Origin: Paenibacillus tianmuensis
Lineage (GTDB): Bacteria > Bacillota > Bacilli > Paenibacillales > NBRC-103111
Assembly (NCBI RefSeq): GCF_900100345.1
Contig: NZ_FMTT01000006.1
Coordinates: 2,737 to 66,736 of the forward strand
DNA length: 64,000 nt
Direction of reading: 5' to 3'
Shown: positions 30,931-42,066 of the stretch, one piece after another
How positions within the stretch are numbered: the stretch's first letter is position 1
How the letters are laid out: each line of letters starts with the position of its first letter
Notes under the pieces: model-generated
Told to the model about the DNA's origin: nothing
Database searches by the model: none
What the model saw: the letters and a program-made list of their open reading frames with translations, nothing else
Position numbers and translations under genes: made by a program

Positions 30931-32166
30931 TTATGGTCCGGGCGGATTGCGATGCTCAATGACTTTGGAACCGCTCGCTCCGTACTCCGCCACGATCGTT
31001 TTGGCGTGTACGCGAACCTCGGCTTGACTGAATTTTTGGTCCCACTGGGATTTGACTTTATCCCATGTTTTCGGCTCATGAATGCGCAGTTCTTTGCCAA
31101 AACCGATCACGTCGGCTTTGTACTGCTTCTGAATTTTTTTCAGTGTCTGGCGGATGTTCTGTTCCAATTGCTTCGCCGCGTACTGCCCCTGACGCTTCAG
31201 GAAACGGTCGTTGAAGCTTTTCTCATTCATCACCCAGCTTTCGCTTAGCCGGCCCCGGGATTCGATCTGAATCTCGAACGAAAGGTTCTCCCCGTCCACG
31301 CGCGGCACAATGTCGCTTTTATACGATAAGATTTCATACAGGTTTTTTTGCCCGGTTTCCTCGTCGGTGAATTTGACGACGCCTCCCCGTACTTGTCCCG
31401 TGATCAGCGTAATGCTGCCCAACTCATCTTCATCGAGAAAGCCGACCAGCTTTCCGCTCTGTCCGTGAACGATTCCGGCCCCGGCAAATTTAATCTCCCC
31501 TCCCCCTTTGACGATCGCTTGCAGCAAAAAACTCGACTTGCTCTGCAGGTACGTCAGCAGCTTGGCCAAAGATACCGGAGGTAGGATGCGGGTCGATTTG
31601 TATTGATTGTCGACCATTTTCAAGATGCGGAACGCCGGAATTTCCTTCGTCCCTTTCAGCTCGAACGTTTCCCTCGCCAATCCGCGGGCGACGAACACCA
31701 GGGCGCTCGGTCTAAATTCCGACTCGCGGTACATCAGATCCATAAAATTCCGGATCGGTGTCGTACGAAGCAACTCGTCGCCGATCACCAGCGTCTTGAA
31801 ATGCTGGGCGAATATCGGCCGTTCCGTCCGGAGCGAAATTTCCCGGGTCGACTCCAATAACAAATCGCCGGTTTCCGTAAAATTTTCGTATCTCTTTTTC
31901 TCAGGGGAACCACCGCCCCCGCGGCCTTGCCCGCCCCCGGAGCTGGAAGTGAAAACCTGATACGTAATCGAGATCAAATCGTCTTTTTTGCGCGCCGCCC
32001 CATTTTTGTTCAGTGCCGTCTCAACCTTCGTTTCATGAGCTTTATCCAGCGCGATTCCGGCCACAAGACTAAGGTCGTCAATCTCCCGCTGACTCCAGCA
32101 GCCCGTCAGAAGCGGTATCACCAGCAGCAGAGCCAGGATCGCGAGCATCCTATTTCGTCGTTTCAA
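30931..32166 (-). CDS. germinant receptor lipoprotein subunit C (GerAC family)
   Basis: The 411-residue product has lipobox LLTGCWS followed by QREIDDLSLVAGIALDK and the Ger(x)C C-terminal domain (QKQYKADVIGFGKELRIHEP). A glycine-rich insertion (GGGQGRGGGG) lies near residue 78. It overlaps the B gene by four bases, so the two are coupled. The matching A subunit is not next to it but 7 kb away at 40399-42018. Confidence 0.92.
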   Translation of the reverse strand: MKRRNRMLAILALLLVIPLLTGCWSQREIDDLSLVAGIALDKAHETKVETALNKNGAARKKDDLISITYQVFTSSSGGGQGRGGGGSPEKKRYENFTETGDLLLESTREISLRTERPIFAQHFKTLVIGDELLRTTPIRNFMDLMYRESEFRPSALVFVARGLARETFELKGTKEIPAFRILKMVDNQYKSTRILPPVSLAKLLTYLQSKSSFLLQAIVKGGGEIKFAGAGIVHGQSGKLVGFLDEDELGSITLITGQVRGGVVKFTDEETGQKNLYEILSYKSDIVPRVDGENLSFEIQIESRGRLSESWVMNEKSFNDRFLKRQGQYAAKQLEQNIRQTLKKIQKQYKADVIGFGKELRIHEPKTWDKVKSQWDQKFSQAEVRVHAKTIVAEYGASGSKVIEHRNPPGP

Positions 32167-33257
32167 GACCGGGCCCCCTTCCTGCCCGGGAGAACGTACA
32201 GAACCGCGGGCACCAGGATAAACAGAACTAACGATGACAAGCCTAACATTTCCCCCAGCTTAAACAATTCGTTCGTATCCGCAGGCGCTAAAGAGATCAT
32301 ATAAATGACCGTCAGCAAGACAAAAATGACCGTCCGATGATTCACCTTCCAGCTTTGGGCAATACCAAGCGCTCCGAGAAAATAAGACAACGTAAAGGTG
32401 GTAAAAATCTGCATCAGCCAGATGACGAGCAGCAGCGTCTCGAAGCGCTCGAAGAAAATTCCCCTGAACTCGAAGCTCCGGAAAAGCGAGATGGTCGGCC
32501 AGGTGCGGGTAATCACACCGTCCACCGATAACGTTCCTATGACAATGACGCAGGTGACGACGTAGAAGAACACCGGGATGAGCACCCCGATCAGCACCGC
32601 TTTGACCGCCTTTTCCGGATGCTTCATAAAAGCAGGAACGACGAGCATGATCTCGACGGACGTGTAGGATAGTACAGTCGTTTTCAGCCCGCGCAGCACG
32701 GGCATGATGCCGTGACCCAGTACGGGCCGCATATTGTTGGGCTCGAATACGCTGAGGCCCATGAAAGCGATCAAGATCAGAATGACGGTCGTGATCGGAA
32801 AGATCACTTCGAAGAGCCGGGCGACCGGATTGATTCCGCCCAATATCAAATAAACCCCCACCCACATAAAAGCGAACGTAATCGCCCAAGAAGGCGTGCC
32901 CTCCAGCAGGAACAGCCGGGTAACGTCGAGCACCGCCCGAAGTTGAAAAGAGGCCATAAATATGAAATATAAAGCCGTAAAAAAACTGAGCGCGATCCCA
33001 AGCCACTTGCCGACGAGCAGCCGGTTATATTGATAGTAGGTTTGGCCCGGGAAGCGTTGGGACAATTTTACAATCAAAGTTCCGACCGCAACCGTGATCA
33101 GTCCGCTCAGGATGAGCGAAATCCAGACATCTGGCGTTTGCGCCGCCTCTACTGAGGTACGGGGCAGCGTCAGAATGCTTACGCCCAGCATATAATTGGA
33201 GATTAGCACGGCTGCTTGCATGGTTGTGATACGGTCCTCGGGCGGCAAAAAAGCCAC
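32163..33257 (-). CDS. germinant receptor permease subunit B (GerAB family)
   Basis: The 364-residue membrane protein has about ten segments and the family blocks DRITTMQAAVLISNYMLGVS (start) and LKTTVLSYTSVEIMLVVPAF (centre). It starts at GTG 33257, six bases after GGGGGG. A sigma-G-like promoter lies 90 bases upstream. Together with the C gene it forms one half of a split receptor locus. Confidence 0.92.
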   Translation of the reverse strand: MAFLPPEDRITTMQAAVLISNYMLGVSILTLPRTSVEAAQTPDVWISLILSGLITVAVGTLIVKLSQRFPGQTYYQYNRLLVGKWLGIALSFFTALYFIFMASFQLRAVLDVTRLFLLEGTPSWAITFAFMWVGVYLILGGINPVARLFEVIFPITTVILILIAFMGLSVFEPNNMRPVLGHGIMPVLRGLKTTVLSYTSVEIMLVVPAFMKHPEKAVKAVLIGVLIPVFFYVVTCVIVIGTLSVDGVITRTWPTISLFRSFEFRGIFFERFETLLLVIWLMQIFTTFTLSYFLGALGIAQSWKVNHRTVIFVLLTVIYMISLAPADTNELFKLGEMLGLSSLVLFILVPAVLYVLPGRKGARS

Positions 33258-33377: not shown

Positions 33378-33520
33378 AAGAACGGCAGGCCGGACCTCAC
33401 GGTACCCAGCTTTCGATAAAATGTAACAAAACGCGGGCAAACCCCGTTGTTTTTAAAGAATAGGATGTCTATCCTTAAATGGACGATAGTTGCAAAATGT
33501 CAGGAAAAAGGGGAGATAAC

Positions 33521-34045
33521 ATGAGCAAACCACGCAATTTTACCGCATGGATCACAGTTTTTTCGATCATCCTTATCGGAGTGATCGCCGCTTTGTTTTT
33601 TATGCCGAAATACGAAGGGACGGTCGGCTTCGACGTGACGGTGCTTCCTCTGCTGAACGCCGTCTTTAACTGCTTTACCTTTGCTTTCTTGCTGCTTTCA
33701 CTTTATTTCGTTAAGAAGAAAAACATCGCGGCGCACCGGAACTTTGTGCTTCTTGCTTTTGTGACCACGGCGTTATTCCTCGTTTCGTACGTCATTTACC
33801 ATTTTCTGACCGAGCCGACGAAATTCGGAGGAAGCCTATGGCTGAAATACGTTTACTTGTTTGTCCTGATCACCCACGTGCTGCTGGCGATCGTGAACGT
33901 CCCTATGGCCTTAATCACCGTAACCCGGGGCTTCAGTATGAACATCGCGGCGCACCGGAAAATCGCCCGTTGGACGATGCCCATTTGGCTGTATGTAAGC
34001 TCTACCGGAGTTCTTGTGTACCTGTTAATTTCACCTTACTATTAA
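33521..34045 (+). CDS. DUF420 membrane protein (CtaM/YozB-like)
   Basis: ATG 33521 is chosen because AAAGGGGAG is five bases upstream. The 174-residue product has five hydrophobic segments with conserved histidines (KKKNIAAHRNFVL, LITHVLLAIVNVP, NIAAHRKIARWTMPIWLYVS). The family includes CtaM, needed for haem-A-type oxidase assembly. It is convergent with the TOMM operon and shares its terminator. It is divergent from gerB-gerC and probably unrelated to either. Confidence 0.85.
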   Translation: MSKPRNFTAWITVFSIILIGVIAALFFMPKYEGTVGFDVTVLPLLNAVFNCFTFAFLLLSLYFVKKKNIAAHRNFVLLAFVTTALFLVSYVIYHFLTEPTKFGGSLWLKYVYLFVLITHVLLAIVNVPMALITVTRGFSMNIAAHRKIARWTMPIWLYVSSTGVLVYLLISPYY

Positions 34046-34102: not shown

Positions 34103-35698
34103 TCAGGAGTATAGTCCGCCCTCCAGCCGGGAGCTGGGTCTGCAAGCTCCTAGCGGCACTTGGATGAGACTAGTAACGCCCTCCGCTTCCATCTTATATA
34201 TTTTGTCGCAATCGGCCGGGTTAAAGCTGAGGAGCGGATGCCCGTTAAGCCCAAGAGCGACCCCCGCGATCAATAGTCGCTGAACAAGCATTCCCGCTTC
34301 CATCTGCTGAATGCGGTACCCCCGGAAACCGAGCGCATCCGCATAGTGATTCCTGTCCGCGGCCACATGCAGGCAAAGCGGTGTCTGAAACAGATTCACG
34401 TTGCCTAGCGTTATTCCTTCCTGCAGCAGCATCCTATAGTCTCCCGGACGGATCATCCGCAGCTCGTGAGCCAGGGCATCGTAACGGTAAGCGCCGTCGG
34501 GAATGCCTTCAAGGCCGTACAAGCAGCCATAAATGGATACCCGCTTCCTGGACTCGTGGCCTGCCGTATCCAAATCGTTCGTATAAGGGAACGAGGCCGT
34601 TGCCTCGTGCAGTAAAGCGGCGGCCTGATGAGCATCAACCGTGTTAAAAACAAAGTCCAAGTGCGGCGAATACCGTTTGCGGACGACCGAAGCCAGATCA
34701 AACGACAGCCTTTGCGCCCGGGGCAGTGCAACCGTCTCCCCACCGCCGGTCATCGTACCTCCGATATTCGCGGCATCGAGCGGACCGAACGATTCCGTTG
34801 TTTCCATCAACGAAGCTTCGTTCATGCGAAGCAGCAGCGGGTACTCTGTGGTGCGAAGCGAGCGGACGTAATGCTCGTGCCGGACTACAGGCAGTGCTGC
34901 GCACAATTGGCGGGAAGTCAAGACTCCCGCTTCAGCTCCGCTGCCATAGAACCAGCTGCCGGAAGGCTGTAGCGATAAGGGGATGACCGCATACACGCTC
35001 TCCTCCTGCTCGGTAAGGCCAAGCAAATGGTTAACGGCCCGGTCGAGAAAACGGAAGTACACCCCTGTATGATATCCGAAGCGTTTGGCTGTTTCCAGCA
35101 GCTGTCCGATGAGCGCGCCGGCGTCAAGCCCTTGCAGACGATAACCGAAGTTATTGTATTTATAGAAGTTTTTCCAGAATACAGTGGACACGAACACGGC
35201 GCCGAAGCAAGCCGAAAGGTCGCAGCGGTCCCCCAGCCCTCGGGTCAGATAAGCATCAAAATCGCCAAGTCGCAGCAGCACGAGACGATGATGCGCCGTA
35301 TCGTAATGATAGATCCCGACAGGCAAATCGTCCGTTTTCAAGTATACATACATTTCGCTCGGATACAGGGAGCCGCCGGAAGGCGCGAACCGCCGGAGCG
35401 AGTGGAATACGTTCGCTCCTCCCTCCAGCCCGCCGTAATCCATGTAAAAGACAGACTGGCTCAGCTGTGCAAGCCCATAAACATACCAGAGAAAATGACC
35501 GATATCGCGAATTTCCGCTCGATCTGGCACAGGCCTTCCTTCAAGGGTCAGCGGCACTTCCGAAGAGAGCGCAAAGGTCGGTAAGCCGCGGTACAGCTTA
35601 TAAGCGAGCGGAGCATTGTACCAATCGGGTTCGAAGTCCGGCGGCTTGGAATGATCGGGATCGTAATGCAGCTTATGCAAAAAAGACTTAAGGCTCAC
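34103..35698 (-). CDS. SagB-family azoline dehydrogenase
   Basis: The 531-residue product contains two nitroreductase-like domains: residues about 60-270, with PSGGSLYPSEMYVYLK, and about 310-520, with YGCLYGLEGIPDGAYRYD. This duplicated layout is typical of SagB/ThcOx proteins of TOMM clusters. The FMN enzyme oxidises azolines in the modified peptide to thiazoles and oxazoles. It starts at GTG after GGGGAG and is the last gene of the operon, 24 bases after the YcaO gene. Confidence 0.88.
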   Translation of the reverse strand: MSLKSFLHKLHYDPDHSKPPDFEPDWYNAPLAYKLYRGLPTFALSSEVPLTLEGRPVPDRAEIRDIGHFLWYVYGLAQLSQSVFYMDYGGLEGGANVFHSLRRFAPSGGSLYPSEMYVYLKTDDLPVGIYHYDTAHHRLVLLRLGDFDAYLTRGLGDRCDLSACFGAVFVSTVFWKNFYKYNNFGYRLQGLDAGALIGQLLETAKRFGYHTGVYFRFLDRAVNHLLGLTEQEESVYAVIPLSLQPSGSWFYGSGAEAGVLTSRQLCAALPVVRHEHYVRSLRTTEYPLLLRMNEASLMETTESFGPLDAANIGGTMTGGGETVALPRAQRLSFDLASVVRKRYSPHLDFVFNTVDAHQAAALLHEATASFPYTNDLDTAGHESRKRVSIYGCLYGLEGIPDGAYRYDALAHELRMIRPGDYRMLLQEGITLGNVNLFQTPLCLHVAADRNHYADALGFRGYRIQQMEAGMLVQRLLIAGVALGLNGHPLLSFNPADCDKIYKMEAEGVTSLIQVPLGACRPSSRLEGGLYS

Positions 35699-35722
35699 GG
35701 CACTCTCCCCTCTCGTCGTCCC

Positions 35723-37666
35723 TTACGGAAACGGATGGGGATGCGGATTGAGCTGTTCGACCGTGAGCGGCTGCTTCGTATAGCCGAGCTGCGCCGGAAC
35801 CTTCAGTACCCGCTCCAGCCCTGTAACACGCGTCAAATGATGACCGAACGTCATCGGCAGCATCCCCGGAATCAGCACTTTGACGCAGGTTAACCCATTT
35901 CGCTTCAGTTCGGGTGAGGTCTGATCGACTACGATCACATCCAGATTCAAGGAGCGGAATTTTTCCAAGATCATCTTCAAGTCGTCTGCAAGATCCGTAT
36001 GCAAACTTTGCGGCGGGAACGCCTCCCGAAACGTCAGCGGAGGTCCGGGCTTCTTCCACAAGAAATCCAAACGCTTCTCCATCTGCGGCAAGCCGTACAG
36101 CATAGAGTGATGCTCCATCTCTCTCACTTGGAAAGGGTCCTCTGCCATCCGTTCGCTTTCCTGCCGGTTGGCTTCGAATCGATCATCCAGCGAGAGCATC
36201 ATGCCGGCCAGTTCAAAGATCGCGCTTTTCAGCGCCCGGATCGGGTCGAGATGGGCTCCCGCCGCACAGATGAGGTTCATCCCGCGCGGTTTCAGGTTTT
36301 TCGCGTAGGTCCAGATGCACGGAATGCCATGCTCCATCGTCGCATCGAATACGTGCAGCTCATAACCGGCCACCGCCCTCATCCGGTCGATCATCAGATT
36401 TAATTCGCGATCGCCGGCGGAATAGGGGTCGACACGGGAAAGTGGAAGCTGCGCGTACCAAGTCAGCAGGAACGAGTCGCGCTCCAGCACCTCCATAATC
36501 CCGTGGAAAATCGCCTCCTCCATGCTGCCGCCCAAAGCGCATCCGTTGGACGTTTCATAGACAACGCCGTTTCCGCAGCCGAGACTGTAATAAGCGAGCA
36601 GCTCCGGTACCAGAATGGGACGATTGTGTATGATGGAGCGGCCCCAGACCCAGTCGATCTCGCGGTTGGGATCAAAACGCCGGAAAGGGAAATCAGGCCG
36701 CGCATACTGCTTTTCCGCGTGGACTCCTACTTCGAGCGGATTTAACGCATGATCGGCGATCTCGCGGTAGCTTTTGCGAATCTTCGTCCATTTGCCTCGC
36801 GGGACCACGCCGCAATGACGCTCCAAGCCTTCCAGTATCGCCGTCAGCTCACTATCCGCATAGGAGAGCGTCCGCCCCGAGCTCGGTTCGTCGCCGGTAA
36901 AAAATGGAAGATTTACGGTGATATCGGCGAACGGCGACAAGCCGTCCTTCATTTTGCCATTGATGAGCCCGGTCCGGAAATCCAAATAATCGCGGGTAAG
37001 CACCTGCTTCAGTTCATCGATCGAACGGCAGCGGAAGCTGTTCGGATGGATCTTCGGACTTGACCCGAGCGAAAAATTAGCCAGTTCCTCCGAATCTTCC
37101 GGCAATTCGCCGCAAACCGGGCACATTGGATCGTGTAAAAAGAGGTGGCGTGAAGTCTTCAAGGTTTTCAGATTCACGAGCAGGATACGTCCTTCCAATT
37201 GGGGCTGTCCGCCGAGAAGTACGCGCCGGGCTTCCGTGGCCAAGAGCGTCGCCGCCTGTGTCAGTCCCGTGCGGGAAGCCCAGACGTCCTGCGGGATTCC
37301 TCCGCGTTCGACAAGCTGCTGCTGCAGCACACGAAGCTCCTTGCGGTCGCCAGTGGCCATAAGCCGCCGCATATCCGCGCATCTGGAGCATCCCTGAACG
37401 CCTGGCCGGACCAACGGTCCGATTATCGCCTCCCCAAAAGACACGAAACCCCGCAGCCACGGTACTTTGGCAGACTGAAGAACCTCCTCCGCTCTGTCCT
37501 GCACGGCAGGGAGCCAGCCATCCTGCGCAAGGATAACCAGATCAGCCGAACGGAATTCCTTTTCCTCCAGCTCGCCCGTACGGATCACCCAAAAGGCAGA
37601 ATTCAGTTCAGCGCATATCAAATCCGCCAGCACGCCTTTGCCGATTACGGCTACAACACTGCTCAT
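35723..37666 (-). CDS. TOMM cyclodehydratase, YcaO/SagD family
   Basis: The 647-residue protein has an N-terminal ThiF/ocin-like part with a four-cysteine zinc site (C93, C96, C182, C185 in CSRC and CPVC) and a YcaO domain from about residue 250. The C-terminus is NPHPHPFP, the PxPxP signature of azoline-forming YcaO enzymes. It uses ATP to cyclise Cys, and possibly Ser/Thr, on the precursor. Its start overlaps the E1-like gene by four bases. Confidence 0.92.
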   Translation of the reverse strand: MSSVVAVIGKGVLADLICAELNSAFWVIRTGELEEKEFRSADLVILAQDGWLPAVQDRAEEVLQSAKVPWLRGFVSFGEAIIGPLVRPGVQGCSRCADMRRLMATGDRKELRVLQQQLVERGGIPQDVWASRTGLTQAATLLATEARRVLLGGQPQLEGRILLVNLKTLKTSRHLFLHDPMCPVCGELPEDSEELANFSLGSSPKIHPNSFRCRSIDELKQVLTRDYLDFRTGLINGKMKDGLSPFADITVNLPFFTGDEPSSGRTLSYADSELTAILEGLERHCGVVPRGKWTKIRKSYREIADHALNPLEVGVHAEKQYARPDFPFRRFDPNREIDWVWGRSIIHNRPILVPELLAYYSLGCGNGVVYETSNGCALGGSMEEAIFHGIMEVLERDSFLLTWYAQLPLSRVDPYSAGDRELNLMIDRMRAVAGYELHVFDATMEHGIPCIWTYAKNLKPRGMNLICAAGAHLDPIRALKSAIFELAGMMLSLDDRFEANRQESERMAEDPFQVREMEHHSMLYGLPQMEKRLDFLWKKPGPPLTFREAFPPQSLHTDLADDLKMILEKFRSLNLDVIVVDQTSPELKRNGLTCVKVLIPGMLPMTFGHHLTRVTGLERVLKVPAQLGYTKQPLTVEQLNPHPHPFP

Positions 37667-39636
37667 GTCGAAACCTCCTCTCCCAGCGCAACGCCCAGGA
37701 CGTGAATGGGCCCTTTATTCAAGAAAGGATCGAGCCTGTAATCAAATACATGCAGCCGTCTGCCGTGCTGCTTCAGCTGTTGTATGGCGGAGGCCAGTAC
37801 GCCAGCTTGCGGCGTTTCTTCGCAGGCCGGGATGGTCAGGCTGCGCGGCCTTACCATTTTCGGAGCCCGGCTTGGAACCGAAGCAATCCGGACTTGAAAC
37901 CGGGGCGCTTGACTTTGAACCTCCGACAGCGCTTGAAGCAGAGCCCTTCGAAGCGCAAGGGTGATATTCAAATCGACGCCCGAGTACCATCTTCCGCCGA
38001 TATCCGCACGAACCACCGGGAAGCCGAACAGCTCTTCCTCCAGAAGGAGGTCCGGCTCCCCCTGCAGCGTAGACAAGGATTTCAAATAATAACGGACCCG
38101 CTCGTCATCCACCATACTCAGCTGCACCGGAGTGACAAGCGGCTTTCGACCGGTCCGCCGAATGTCCAGCTCTTCCGCCAGACACTTTCGCAAGCCCCGG
38201 CATACAGCTTCCGTCAGCGTCTCACCCGCCCCGATGCCGACATATTCGGATACACGCAGACCCGTTGCGCCCGTTTCCGACGGCGAAGACGACTGCCCCA
38301 TACGTTCGGCCAACCGGGACGTATAAGCTTCCAATCCGGCAAGCGCCGATTCCCGTCTTGCTTCCTCATGCGTCAATCCTGTACCGACTATGGAAGGAAG
38401 CAGTTCAACCGGCCCGTCCGAGAGCGGGTCCGCCACCTGAACCCGGCATTGCGCAAGCGGCAGCTGCTTTAAGTCGCCTTCGTCCCATTCGTAAAAAATG
38501 CCCGTATCCGGCGAGGTTATCCGTTCACAATAATCCAGTAACGGGCTGTGCCTTCCGCTCTGCGGCGCCGGGCCCGGATCCTGCATCAACCGCGGCTCAA
38601 TATCCGGAATGCGTTCAATCCGGTTGCAGCCGACCACCATCGGGTGAGCCACAAACGAATACCAGTCCCCTTCCAGCGTCTCCAGGTTCAGTAAATATAC
38701 CGCCTGATTTCGCAGCGGATCGGCAGCTCCCGTCACCGTTTTGAACAGTTCGAACACGATCACATTCGACAGCAAAGCCCCGGCGTGGACAGAAAACCCA
38801 TGCTGCTGCGGATCTTGACGTAGAACAGGCTGATGAATGCGCCGCAGCGCCGACTCCCAACCATTCCCATCTTCCGGCCGCTCAAGAGGCCCTGCCAAAC
38901 CGGCTTGCTGCAAGCAAATTGCGGGAAGGAATAGTTTTCTCTCCGCTTTGCAGGCCGCTTGGACGATCCGAAGCTCTTCAATATCCCCCTCCTGCGATAC
39001 GTACATGATCGAATCGAACGGTTTCAGGACCTCCTGCCAAGCGGAAACGTCCCGTCTGGGGTAAGGCACTTCCTGAATATGTACCTCCGGATCGGATTTC
39101 CGGGCATGCTCCCCCAGTTCCTTCAGCCGCTCACGGTTGGTTGGCAATGAATCGCCAATGACCACTCCGATTCGGGATAACCCGGATTCCAGCAAAGCCG
39201 CCACCAATGAAACCATGAACGGACCGGAACCAATCGCCAACACCTTCTCTTGGCGATATTGCTCAAAGCGGTGCGCGCCGGAGCCTCCAAAATTGCTCAG
39301 AAATTCAATTTGCGAGCCGAACTTCTCAAGAATCGTTTCCGATAGCCGGTGGGGATGGTCTCCGCTTACATCCCGGGCGAAGCCGTTTTGGATCAATAAA
39401 GCGGCAATATCGAACACGTGGCCTTTGTGCGGCTCTGGCAACCCGTCCGTCAATTCCATAAGCGTGTACTTCCCGTTAAATACCGGTACCAGCTTCTCGA
39501 CCCAACGATCAATGGACTCGCCTTCCAACCGGAACGAGCCCATGTTGTTTCTAAAATAGACCGCGCCGTTCCGATCGGGGATAAAAAAGGTGTCCCCGTT
39601 CATTTTCGGACGCACGGAAGCATCGAATGTGGTCAT
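37663..39636 (-). CDS. thiazole-bacteriocin maturation protein, ThiF/E1-like
   Basis: The 657-residue protein starts with a peptide-clasp-like region (about 1-90, including NGKYTLMELTDGL and ALLIQNGF), as in leader-recognition domains, and then a Rossmann-type E1 fold (VLAIGSGPFMVSLVAALLES at about residue 132). The C-terminal third is helical and unassigned. It resembles the putative thiazole-containing bacteriocin maturation family of Bacillus heterocycloanthracin clusters, where it would bind the leader and present the substrate to the YcaO protein. AAGGAGG precedes the start. Confidence 0.88.
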   Translation of the reverse strand: MTTFDASVRPKMNGDTFFIPDRNGAVYFRNNMGSFRLEGESIDRWVEKLVPVFNGKYTLMELTDGLPEPHKGHVFDIAALLIQNGFARDVSGDHPHRLSETILEKFGSQIEFLSNFGGSGAHRFEQYRQEKVLAIGSGPFMVSLVAALLESGLSRIGVVIGDSLPTNRERLKELGEHARKSDPEVHIQEVPYPRRDVSAWQEVLKPFDSIMYVSQEGDIEELRIVQAACKAERKLFLPAICLQQAGLAGPLERPEDGNGWESALRRIHQPVLRQDPQQHGFSVHAGALLSNVIVFELFKTVTGAADPLRNQAVYLLNLETLEGDWYSFVAHPMVVGCNRIERIPDIEPRLMQDPGPAPQSGRHSPLLDYCERITSPDTGIFYEWDEGDLKQLPLAQCRVQVADPLSDGPVELLPSIVGTGLTHEEARRESALAGLEAYTSRLAERMGQSSSPSETGATGLRVSEYVGIGAGETLTEAVCRGLRKCLAEELDIRRTGRKPLVTPVQLSMVDDERVRYYLKSLSTLQGEPDLLLEEELFGFPVVRADIGGRWYSGVDLNITLALRRALLQALSEVQSQAPRFQVRIASVPSRAPKMVRPRSLTIPACEETPQAGVLASAIQQLKQHGRRLHVFDYRLDPFLNKGPIHVLGVALGEEVST

Positions 39637-39742
39637 CTCACTCCTCCTTATCCTTACTTTTGGTCAATCCGGCCGGATGTTCACTGTTATCTTATGTATT
39701 GTCGTTTGTCCTTCTTGTCAATTATTTTCAAGGGGCCGTTCC

Positions 39743-39783
39743 AGCCCCTGCGGTTTGGATCAAAGGCCGCATGTGCAGGGGCT
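39743..39783 (-). promoter_or_regulatory. hairpin between TOMM precursor and modification genes
   Basis: AGCCCCTGC (39743-39751) and GCAGGGGCT (39775-39783) form a perfect nine-pair stem. No T run follows on the minus strand, so it is not a strong terminator. It may act as a partial terminator or as an RNA-stabilising or processing site that gives more precursor than enzyme. Confidence 0.55.
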
Positions 39784-39812
39784 GATACTACCAGGGGAGT
39801 CCCGTTAATGAC

Positions 39813-40106
39813 TTAACCGCAACGATGTCCGCAACGATGTCCGCAACGTCCTCCGCAAGCGCAGCCTCCGCCTCCGCAGCCGCAACCTCCTCCGCAACCT
39901 CCTCCGCAGCCGCAACCCCCGCCGCAGAAACAGCTGCAGAAGCAGCGGAAGCAACCGCAGCCGCATGGACAACGGAAACAACCGCAGCCACCTCCACATA
40001 GACGAGAATCGGCTTCGTATTGGCCTTGATGTTGTAAAGGCGTTACCTGACCTGCATTGTATGCTGCGACTTGCAATTGTTGAAGCTCATTCTGAAATTC
40101 ACTCAT
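39813..40106 (-). CDS. heterocycloanthracin-like TOMM precursor peptide
   Basis: ATG 40106 is chosen because GGAGGG lies ten bases upstream; a longer frame to 40268 has no such support. The 97-residue peptide has a leader (SEFQNELQQLQVAAYNAGQV, then TPLQHQGQYEADSR) and a core from residue 37 to 97 with 21 cysteines, mostly as CG, CGGG, CFRC and CGHR units, one serine and no threonine. Leader and Cys-repeat core match the heterocycloanthracin/sonorensin bacteriocin family. The core should be converted to many thiazoles by the downstream enzymes. No dedicated exporter or leader peptidase is nearby. Confidence 0.9.
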   Translation of the reverse strand: MSEFQNELQQLQVAAYNAGQVTPLQHQGQYEADSRLCGGGCGCFRCPCGCGCFRCFCSCFCGGGCGCGGGCGGGCGCGGGGCACGGRCGHRCGHRCG

Positions 40107-40244: not shown

Positions 40245-40272
40245 ATTTTTATGAATTTTGATCCGCATGTGT
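40245..40272 (-). promoter_or_regulatory. possible sigma-K-type promoter of the TOMM operon
   Basis: On the minus strand AC (40272-40271) is followed after 17 bases by CATAAAAAT (40253-40245), compared with the mother-cell sigma-K pattern AC-N17-CATANNNTA. The last two positions do not fit. It lies 139 bases before the precursor start. This is a weak match. Confidence 0.25.
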
Positions 40273-40351
40273 TACGGGGTGCCAAGCTTTATTCCCAATC
40301 ATTTTTCAATAATGGTTAAAAGTAGGTTTTCATATCGGATAACAACGAATA

Positions 40352-40377
40352 ACCCGGACGACTTATGTCACCCGGGT
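40352..40377 (-). terminator. possible terminator after gerA
   Basis: ACCCGG and CCGGGT can pair across a 14-base loop 22 bases past the gerA stop, with only a short T-rich tail on the minus strand. It would separate gerA transcription from the TOMM precursor. Confidence 0.4.
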
Positions 40378-40398: not shown

Positions 40399-42018
40399 TT
40401 ATCCACGGCGCTTCGGCTGTTTGACCTGCATGGTCTTCGGGCGGCGCGTCATTAAAGAAAGCGGCGCGCGCAGGACGAAGTCCTTCCAATCGCTGAGCCG
40501 GTAAGGAGCCGCGGGGCTCAAGTAAGGAATGCCGAAGCTCTTCAGTTTGGCCAAATGGCTGCATATCAGCAGGAAGAACAGGATGACCCCATACAGTCCG
40601 AAGATGGCCGCCGAAAACATCGTACCGAAGCGTATGATCCGCAGAGCAATTCCTGCGCTGTATTGAGGGATGGCAAACGAAGAAATCGCCGTAATGGCAA
40701 CGACGATGACCATGATGGGGCTGACGATGCCGGCTTGTACCGCCGCTTCCCCAATGACCAGGCCGCCGACAATGCCGATGGTCTGACCGATAGGCTTCGG
40801 CAAGCGTAAACCGGCCTCCCGCAAAATTTCGATCGATACTTCCATGATCAACGCTTCGATTAACGAAGGGAAGGGCACGCCTTCTCTTGAGCCGGCGATG
40901 GATACCGCCAATTTGGTTGGAATCAGCCCTTGATGGAACGAGATGAACGAAATGTAGAGCGCGGGCCCGAGCGTGGAAATCAATGCTGCGATATAGCGCA
41001 GCACGCGCACGAGCGTGCCCGGGATCCAGCGCTCGTAATAATCCTCCGGGGATTGCAGCAGCATGCTGATGCTTACCGGGACGATCAGCGCAAACGGGGA
41101 GCCGTCCAGCAGAATCGCCACTCTGCCTTCCATCAGCGCGCTGTTCACCCGATCCGGCCGTTCCGTATTTTGCACTTGGGGAAACAGCGTAAGATGGTTA
41201 TCCTCGATAAACTGTTCGATATATCCGGAATCGGGAACGTCGTCCATATCGATCCGGTCGATGCGCTTCCGGACCTCCTGCACCAAAGCGTCATTGGCAA
41301 TGTCGCCGTTGTAAGCAATTGCTACCGTTTTGGGAGCTTTACGCCCCACCACCGTATAAGCGATACATAGGGTGTGACTCCCGCCAAGCTGGCGCAGCAG
41401 CGCGGTATTATCCGCCAGGCTTTCATTGAAGCTGACGCGCGGCCCTCGGACCAAAGCCTCCGAGGCCGGTTCGCCGAGGCTGCGTTTTTTCTCGTTCCCG
41501 GTGGCCAACACGAAGACATTCGGGCAGCCGTCGATCAAGAGACCAGCATTCCCTTTCCATAAGCCGGGCAGCAGATCGCGCAGGTTCCCTGCTTCGCCCA
41601 GCTCGCTCACGGACAAGATCCGATTTTTGATGTGTGGCGGCACTTCCTCCGCGCAGTTTGGTATCGTAAAGTCCGACATCAGAGCGGATAAAATGTGCGT
41701 ATCGATGTAGTTTTTGTCCGCAAGCTCCTTCACCAGAATCAAGGCAGCCTTCGTACGCGAGCCGCCCATTTCAAACGTCCGGATCAAGATGTCATCATTG
41801 CGGCCTAATCTGTCTTGAAGTTCCGGCAAGTCCTTTTCGAACTTTCCGGTAAAGACGTATAACCGCTCTTCGGAGGCGGGTTTACTGCTGCTGCGGATCG
41901 TCAACACCGATTTCAACCAAGCTCCCAGCTTGTACACACCATAGGGCGCCACACTGCACAGGATGGCCTGCAAAATAATTTCCCAATTCGTCATATGAGT
42001 CGAAATAAATTTCCACAT
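40399..42018 (-). CDS. germinant receptor subunit A (GerAA family)
   Basis: The product (539 aa from ATG 42018) has the hydrophilic N-terminal domain with NTERPDRVNSALMEGRVAIL, then membrane segments (ALISTLGPALYISFISFHQG, KPIGQTIGIVGGLVIGEAAV). The frame is open to 42048, but that start would lie inside the promoter found at 42037-42066, so 42018, eight bases after GGGGGG, is chosen. An extra hydrophobic stretch near the N-terminus (WEIILQAILCSVAPYGVYKL) is unusual. Its B and C partners are at 30931-33257, beyond the TOMM cluster. Confidence 0.9.
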   Translation of the reverse strand: MWKFISTHMTNWEIILQAILCSVAPYGVYKLGAWLKSVLTIRSSSKPASEERLYVFTGKFEKDLPELQDRLGRNDDILIRTFEMGGSRTKAALILVKELADKNYIDTHILSALMSDFTIPNCAEEVPPHIKNRILSVSELGEAGNLRDLLPGLWKGNAGLLIDGCPNVFVLATGNEKKRSLGEPASEALVRGPRVSFNESLADNTALLRQLGGSHTLCIAYTVVGRKAPKTVAIAYNGDIANDALVQEVRKRIDRIDMDDVPDSGYIEQFIEDNHLTLFPQVQNTERPDRVNSALMEGRVAILLDGSPFALIVPVSISMLLQSPEDYYERWIPGTLVRVLRYIAALISTLGPALYISFISFHQGLIPTKLAVSIAGSREGVPFPSLIEALIMEVSIEILREAGLRLPKPIGQTIGIVGGLVIGEAAVQAGIVSPIMVIVVAITAISSFAIPQYSAGIALRIIRFGTMFSAAIFGLYGVILFFLLICSHLAKLKSFGIPYLSPAAPYRLSDWKDFVLRAPLSLMTRRPKTMQVKQPKRRG

Positions 42019-42036
42019 GCCTGTCGCCCCCCATAT

Positions 42037-42066
42037 TATGGTGAGCAAACCGTAATCTTGTTATGC
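42037..42066 (-). promoter_or_regulatory. sigma-G-like promoter of gerA
   Basis: On the minus strand GCATA (42066-42062) and CACCATA (42043-42037) are 18 bases apart. The boxes and their flanks are the same as in the gerB-gerC promoter at 33348-33377. Confidence 0.65.

Follow-up and report, generated by a model that had tools for sequence, protein, structure and literature searches.

A candidate sigma-K-type promoter signature for the heterocycloanthracin/sonorensin family of modified peptides

We analysed a 64,000-nucleotide stretch of the Paenibacillus tianmuensis genome (here called the window; NCBI RefSeq assembly GCF_900100345.1, contig NZ_FMTT01000006.1, positions 2,737 to 66,736), which carries a compact cluster that probably makes a thiazole/oxazole-modified microcin (TOMM). 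On the minus strand, in the direction of transcription, a precursor peptide gene is followed by genes for an ocin-ThiF-like F protein, a fused C-D cyclodehydratase of the YcaO type and a SagB-type dehydrogenase, the YcaO gene overlapping the F gene by 4 nucleotides (nt). A short promoter-like element lies ahead of the precursor and is the main subject of this report. The cluster itself belongs to a known family, the heterocycloanthracin/sonorensin (HCA) TOMMs; what is new here is a promoter signature found across that family. An earlier account of the window, made from its letters alone (the sequence-only reading), had described a 97-residue, 21-Cys precursor followed by the maturation genes on one strand, with a core built from CG, CGGG, CFRC and CGHR units and a YcaO protein ending in PHPHPFP. 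The coordinates and profile searches agree with it on all of these points.

Table 1. Positions of the cluster, its promoter-like element and neighbouring features in the window.
Feature	Position	Strand	Remarks
HCA/sonorensin-type precursor, 97 aa	39813-40106	-	leader ends ...YEADSR, core with 21 Cys
TOMM F protein (ocin-ThiF-like), 657 aa	37663-39636	-	TIGR03693
Fused C-D cyclodehydratase (TIGR03882 domain + YcaO/SagD), 647 aa	35723-37666	-	C-terminal PHPHPFP
SagB-type FMN dehydrogenase (B protein), 531 aa	34103-35698	-	two SagB/nitroreductase stretches
Sigma-K-like promoter GTAACACATGCGGATCAAAATTCATA	40250-40275	-	-35 AACA 40273-40270, 16 nt, -10 CATA 40253-40250
Spacer precursor/F, GC-rich 11-bp stem	39637-39812	-	folding z -0.85
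Terminator-like hairpin after gerA	40352-40377	-	terminator prediction
gerA-type gene	40399-42048	-	neighbour upstream of precursor
DUF420 gene	33479-34045	+	neighbour beside SagB
gerB-type permease	32163-33257	-	neighbour
gerC-type gene	30931-32166	-	neighbour

The family assignment rests on marker profiles. The F protein matched TIGR03693 over residues 1-651 with 632.3 bits (cut-off 561.9). The YcaO protein passed the cut-offs of both TIGR03604 (418.8 bits, residues 264-647) and TIGR03882 (156.8 bits, residues 69-235) and also matched PF02624, while the SagB-type protein matched PF00881 and, in two stretches, TIGR03605 (181.5 bits, cut-off 78.4). F, fused cyclodehydratase and B are the set common to all HCA clusters (Cox 2015, PMC4603692), and F proteins are the precursor-binding partners of the cyclodehydratase (PMC4603692, PMC7470986). 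The heterocycloanthracin family was defined in the Bacillus cereus group by Haft 2009, with TIGR03601 as its precursor profile (PMC2674419). The sequence-only reading had proposed comparing the precursor and the E1-like protein with TOMM profiles: the second passes its profile, as above, and the first falls short, with 30.9 bits (E 3.1e-7) against a TIGR03601 cut-off of 35. Among seven relatives' precursors, one from the same clade (L050, 40.5 bits) and four others (38.3-50.6 bits) pass this cut-off, and two more from the same clade stay under it (31.3 and 33.7 bits). Since the maturation set matches, and is ranked ahead of the precursor score, the marker families identify the locus as an HCA cluster of the Paenibacillus elgii/ehimensis/tyrfis group; chance grouping is excluded by the TIGR03601 and TIGR03693 matches together with the presence of the F protein in 22 of 25 genus genomes. 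The gene first called E1/ThiF-like is indeed ocin-ThiF-like and corresponds to the leader-binding F protein. Terminator prediction listed no terminator-like site in the spacer between precursor and F, and we rejected a special RNA structure there, the fold being overall no better than shuffles.

Aligning the upstream regions of ten close precursors revealed a strongly conserved stretch ~150 bp ahead of the start codon. Its pattern, G(T/G)AACA-N3-GCGGA(G/T)-N6/7-CATA, precedes all 21 genus precursors found (with a GAGGA variant in one). ACA and CATA are separated by 16 nt in 19 of them and by 15 nt in the other 2; the L052 gap is 16 nt measured from GTAACA, and 22 if measured from an earlier AACA. 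Outside the close clade, genus F proteins are only ~45-54% identical to that of the window, yet the element is kept. The pattern occurs once in the window's genome, where pattern search returned no second site. A scan of 104 family genomes with the pattern GTAACANNNGCGGAKN{6,8}CATA gave 60 sites in 51 of them, compared with 1 for a reversed control, and a precursor lies downstream of 57 of the 60 (17 known genus precursors, plus 38 of 40 and 2 of 3 newly read sites). Seven of the element-bearing precursors have no maturation genes within ~6 kb downstream (L124-L128, L133 and L138); at a further element site, L162, the contig ends. Five of the seven (L124-L128) are second, unlinked HCA precursors in close relatives of the window genome, and four of these have a long open reading frame (ORF) ~900 bases farther downstream that looks chemoreceptor-like by eye.

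The outer parts of the element are mostly kept in Bacillaceae, Brevibacillus, Aneurinibacillus and Thermoactinomycetaceae, where its middle is changed. A loose form, G(T/G)(A/G)(A/G)C(A/C)-N15..17-CATA, is present in 58 of 59 hand-picked upstream regions, this being the set whose inspection preceded the writing of the pattern: 21 are from the genus and 38 from named genomes, mostly loci where the box had earlier gone unseen (L239 was dropped for a wrong start codon). We then took all 80 named loci, the best 80 of 318 relatives from a scan of named genomes. Two of them, L189 and L222, have no precursor-like ORF; within 300 bp upstream of the other 78 such ORFs, one of them (L177) doubtful by eye, the loose form occurs in 73 and the strict form in 56. 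The corresponding counts upstream of other long ORFs at the same loci are 8 and 0 of 894, a mechanically drawn background in which some ORFs are not genes. Of 30 precursors found with TIGR03601, the loose form precedes 17 and the strict form 6, where dinucleotide shuffles gave 0.4 and 0.045. Five of these 30 (L274, L278, L290, L296 and L298) already belong to the set on which the pattern was built; leaving them out gives 12 and 2 of 25.

The element resembles a sigma-K promoter: in the window, a -35 AC and a -10 CATA stand within the range of 15-17 nt from each other. As a yardstick we used yabG, which we take to be sigma-K-dependent in B. subtilis, and whose promoter reads ACC-N16-CATA in 23 and ACC-N15-CATA in 2 of the 25 genus genomes. 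What we take to be the GerE consensus, RWWTRGGYNNYY, is present exactly in 30 of the 59 upstream regions, 29 times at 18 nt and once at 19 nt before the element, and a consensus of 75 sites, unselected for GerE match, reads AAATAGGCATTT at that position. In Bacillus thuringiensis, the sigma-K promoters of bclA and bclB also show N16 spacing, sigK mutation lowered transcription of all tested exosporium genes, and GerE bound several exosporium-gene promoters, that of bclA not among them (PMC4750369); C. difficile YabG is placed under mother-cell regulators (PMC10681294). Promoter prediction listed no sigma-70-type promoter upstream of the window precursor. Together, these results strongly suggest sigma-K-type transcription of the precursor, in the mother cell and late in sporulation. 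We found no paper joining HCA to sigma-K or GerE in the literature searched, which was mostly open-access and judged from listings. In addition, Bacillaceae upstream regions (for example L176 and L182) contain TACCCA, an inverted half of the GerE-like site, between -35 and -10, and many genus yabG promoters have GCCCAT at a similar place.

The peptide that this promoter precedes has a conserved leader and a variable core. The window precursor holds 21 Cys and 28 Gly in its 97 residues, a Cys content that had been called extreme; across 21 genus precursors, however, the count runs from 12 to 22, with 21 or more in six, and 15 of 136 precursors in a wider, automatically collected set (a few false ORFs included) also reach 21. 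Nor is the Gly-rich CG/CFRC core distinctive, as had been supposed, being one of many core types in the family: repeats are of the CS type in three close relatives and of CHNC, CAGV or CFNC types in others, and across the 21 genus precursors it is the leader that is conserved. In an operon tree of ten close genomes the three CS cores fall into one clade, so one CG/CS change suffices and repeated core swapping was rejected. An Arg stands within 14 residues ahead of the core in 124 of the 136 precursors.

The closest named relatives are Paenibacillus sp. MZ04-78.2 (95% F identity), P. tyrfis, P. oleatilyticus, Paenibacillus sp. A3, P. elgii and P. ehimensis. More widely, 77 of the 398 genomes sampled from the class encode the F protein; a phylum-wide sample was too thin (3/398), and the class-level sample was used instead. 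Matches to F at E 1e-20 were found in 3 of 72,556 plasmid records, and the cluster is largely chromosomal. By a loose criterion, 78 of the 80 named loci have a Cys-rich ORF upstream of F at a distance of no more than 1.6 kb, so that a linked precursor, thought unusual by the sequence-only reading, is the rule in this set. Cox 2015, whose set contained many strains of the B. cereus group, counted a precursor within 10 kb in 14 of 254 cases (PMC4603692), and it is in the B. cereus group that an unlinked precursor, far from the operon, was described (PMC2674419). Several genus genomes also encode a second, shorter F-like protein beside a fused C-D YcaO gene (L034-L038; L032:11489-14997). The N-terminal ~120 residues, in which the leader-binding part would be expected, are missing from this protein, and we detected neither a SagB homologue nor an HCA-type precursor belonging to the pair in the stretches read; in G007 the pair is divergent from an HCA cluster.

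From family knowledge, the F protein would bind the conserved leader, the fused C-D YcaO enzyme would cyclise core Cys to thiazolines, and the SagB-type dehydrogenase would oxidise these to thiazoles. The sigma-K-type promoter would drive the precursor in the mother cell late in sporulation, with help from GerE in many relatives, and it is because of this promoter that we infer a late mother-cell product. Such a product would be freed with the spore at mother-cell lysis or deposited on the spore. Because the mother cell is about to lyse, an exporter and self-immunity may be unneeded; as the sequence-only reading had remarked, none of the neighbours of the cluster in the window was recognisable as an exporter, protease or immunity gene. 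We consider it probable that this is how the HCA cluster works, with late mother-cell expression of the sigma-K type and a product freed with or laid on the spore, and the link to sporulation that had earlier been guessed at now has candidate promoter evidence in its support. The product would most likely act as an antibacterial around the spore, with a role in the spore envelope as the other candidate. YabG has Arg specificity at P1 (PMC12445089), and the conserved Arg at the border of leader and core could, speculatively, be cut by a coat-stage protease of this kind. Taken to the whole HCA/sonorensin family, the proposal would be that its members are late mother-cell (sigma-K/GerE), hypervariable polyazoles of endospore formers and not ordinary secreted bacteriocins, delivered with or built into the spore after an Arg-specific coat-stage protease such as YabG has cut the leader; we put this forward tentatively, with prospects falling just short of even.

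Several observations weigh against late mother-cell expression or against its generality. The window -10, CATAAAAAT, fits CATA but does not show the extension nnnTA with which a sigma-K -10 presumably continues; the consensus of the 75 sites here reads CATA(A/T)(A/T)TTG. The exact GerE consensus near the -35 was not matched in the window's clade, and the candidate promoter lies ahead of the precursor, whose transcript F, C-D and B may or may not share. In a genome-scale search, TIGR03601 scores the window precursor weakly (18 bits) and misses it at E 0.001. Three of the 60 family pattern sites have no precursor following: at L123 there is no YcaO gene either, and at the G017 site (L039) no Cys-rich ORF was found and the F gene is in pieces. 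The third, L129 (G024:C7:22500-29500), has the element 79 bases ahead of a YcaO C-D gene, and no precursor intervenes. The loose pattern is absent in 13 of the 30 precursors found with TIGR03601; these misses include one read at the wrong place (L289) and one broken frame (L302), and several others, Brevibacillus-like by eye, show a near variant, GAATACCCA..TTCATAAA. None of the precursors studied was shown to belong to the group in which the family was defined, that of B. cereus. All 77 class genomes with F encode SpoIVA, compared with 266 of 398 overall, but this test is weakened by the shared ancestry of spore formers, and F is missing from 189 of the 266 SpoIVA genomes and from 3 of the 25 genus genomes. 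Finally, an HCA member was reported to rise in B. cereus biofilm (PMC6962202), a result that does not discriminate because sporulation genes rise there too.

Two other functions have to be set beside late release with the spore. The cluster might make a conventional secreted bacteriocin, expressed in stationary phase under another sigma factor, with the box serving as an unrelated regulator's site and with export and immunity provided elsewhere. Sonorensin is reported to be antibacterial and to permeabilise membranes (PMC4544038), and, as would be expected of a dedicated regulator's site, the GTAACAnnnGCGGA portion of the Paenibacillus box occurs largely at HCA precursors. The -10 CATA and 16-nt spacing nevertheless match yabG and published sigma-K promoters (PMC4750369), and this, with the absence of a listed sigma-70-type promoter ahead of the precursor and of a recognised exporter or immunity gene beside the cluster, makes a conventional secreted bacteriocin unlikely. 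Sonorensin's reported killing also speaks against a component of the spore envelope, that is, a polyazole, Cys-rich coat peptide that might, for example, form cross-links, bind metal or absorb UV (PMC4544038 for the killing). Such a component would share its promoter class with exosporium genes (PMC4750369), and the wide occurrence of the cluster in the genus, its rarity on plasmids and the low-complexity Cys/Gly/His cores all suit it; the highly variable core behind a conserved leader is more like a diversifying natural product. We regard an envelope role as a real possibility, if not the one that we favour.

The flanking genes raise a further alternative, in which the cluster partners the gerA/gerB/gerC germination receptor, for instance as an inhibitor of germination or a signal. 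Eight of the ten close genomes, a set to which the window's own belongs, have the cluster between gerA and DUF420-gerB-gerC (in another, L049, the contig ends beside SagB, before the gerB side), and a ger operon with a gerA ~40% identical lies ~2.7 kb from F-CD clusters of the second type, which have no HCA precursor, in L034 and L035. However, in G016, whose F protein is 95% identical, the cluster and DUF420 are both present but the stretch read shows no homologue of gerA, gerB or gerC, and the best match to GerA elsewhere is 51% identical. Nor did we see ger homologues in the stretches read around the other 11 precursor-bearing clusters of the genus, which are more distant (L032, L051-L060). 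A terminator-like hairpin, largely conserved in the ten-genome alignment, also parts gerA from the precursor; the 1-kb region holds 3 terminator-like sites against a shuffle mean of 1.3. On the evidence of G016 we rejected an obligatory tie to the flanking receptor; a role in germination appears very improbable, and we read the neighbourhood as probable local history rather than function. A second gerA-type gene, 46% identical to the first, lies ~21 kb off on the same contig (window 17559-19028).

Heterocycloanthracin of the B. cereus group shares with the window cluster the leader family, a Cys/Gly-rich core and the set of F, fused C-D and B proteins, but has its precursor far from the operon (PMC2674419), whereas here the precursor is linked, stands first and has a different core. 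Sonorensin, from Bacillus sonorensis MT93, belongs to the same named family and was purified and tested as an antibacterial (PMC4544038), whereas no such test is known for the present cluster. Thiopeptide clusters with an ocin-ThiF-like F group with HCA through F and the fused cyclodehydratase (PMC4603692, PMC7470986). In contrast to them, the present four genes include none for macrocyclisation or dehydration by a dehydratase. We take the present core to lack the thiopeptide plan. The sigma-K/GerE genes yabG, bclA and bclB have the same architecture of -35 AC, 16-nt gap and -10 CATA; they encode structural proteins or a protease, whereas the promoter predicted here precedes a gene for a modified peptide.

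The cluster itself is one of hundreds, and the promoter result is the useful part of this analysis. It could explain how a cluster of this kind works without an exporter or immunity gene, and it tells when and where to seek the products, namely in late sporangia and spores. A DNA pattern alone ties orphan precursors to the HCA family, and the signature makes the standing question of what this family does directly testable.

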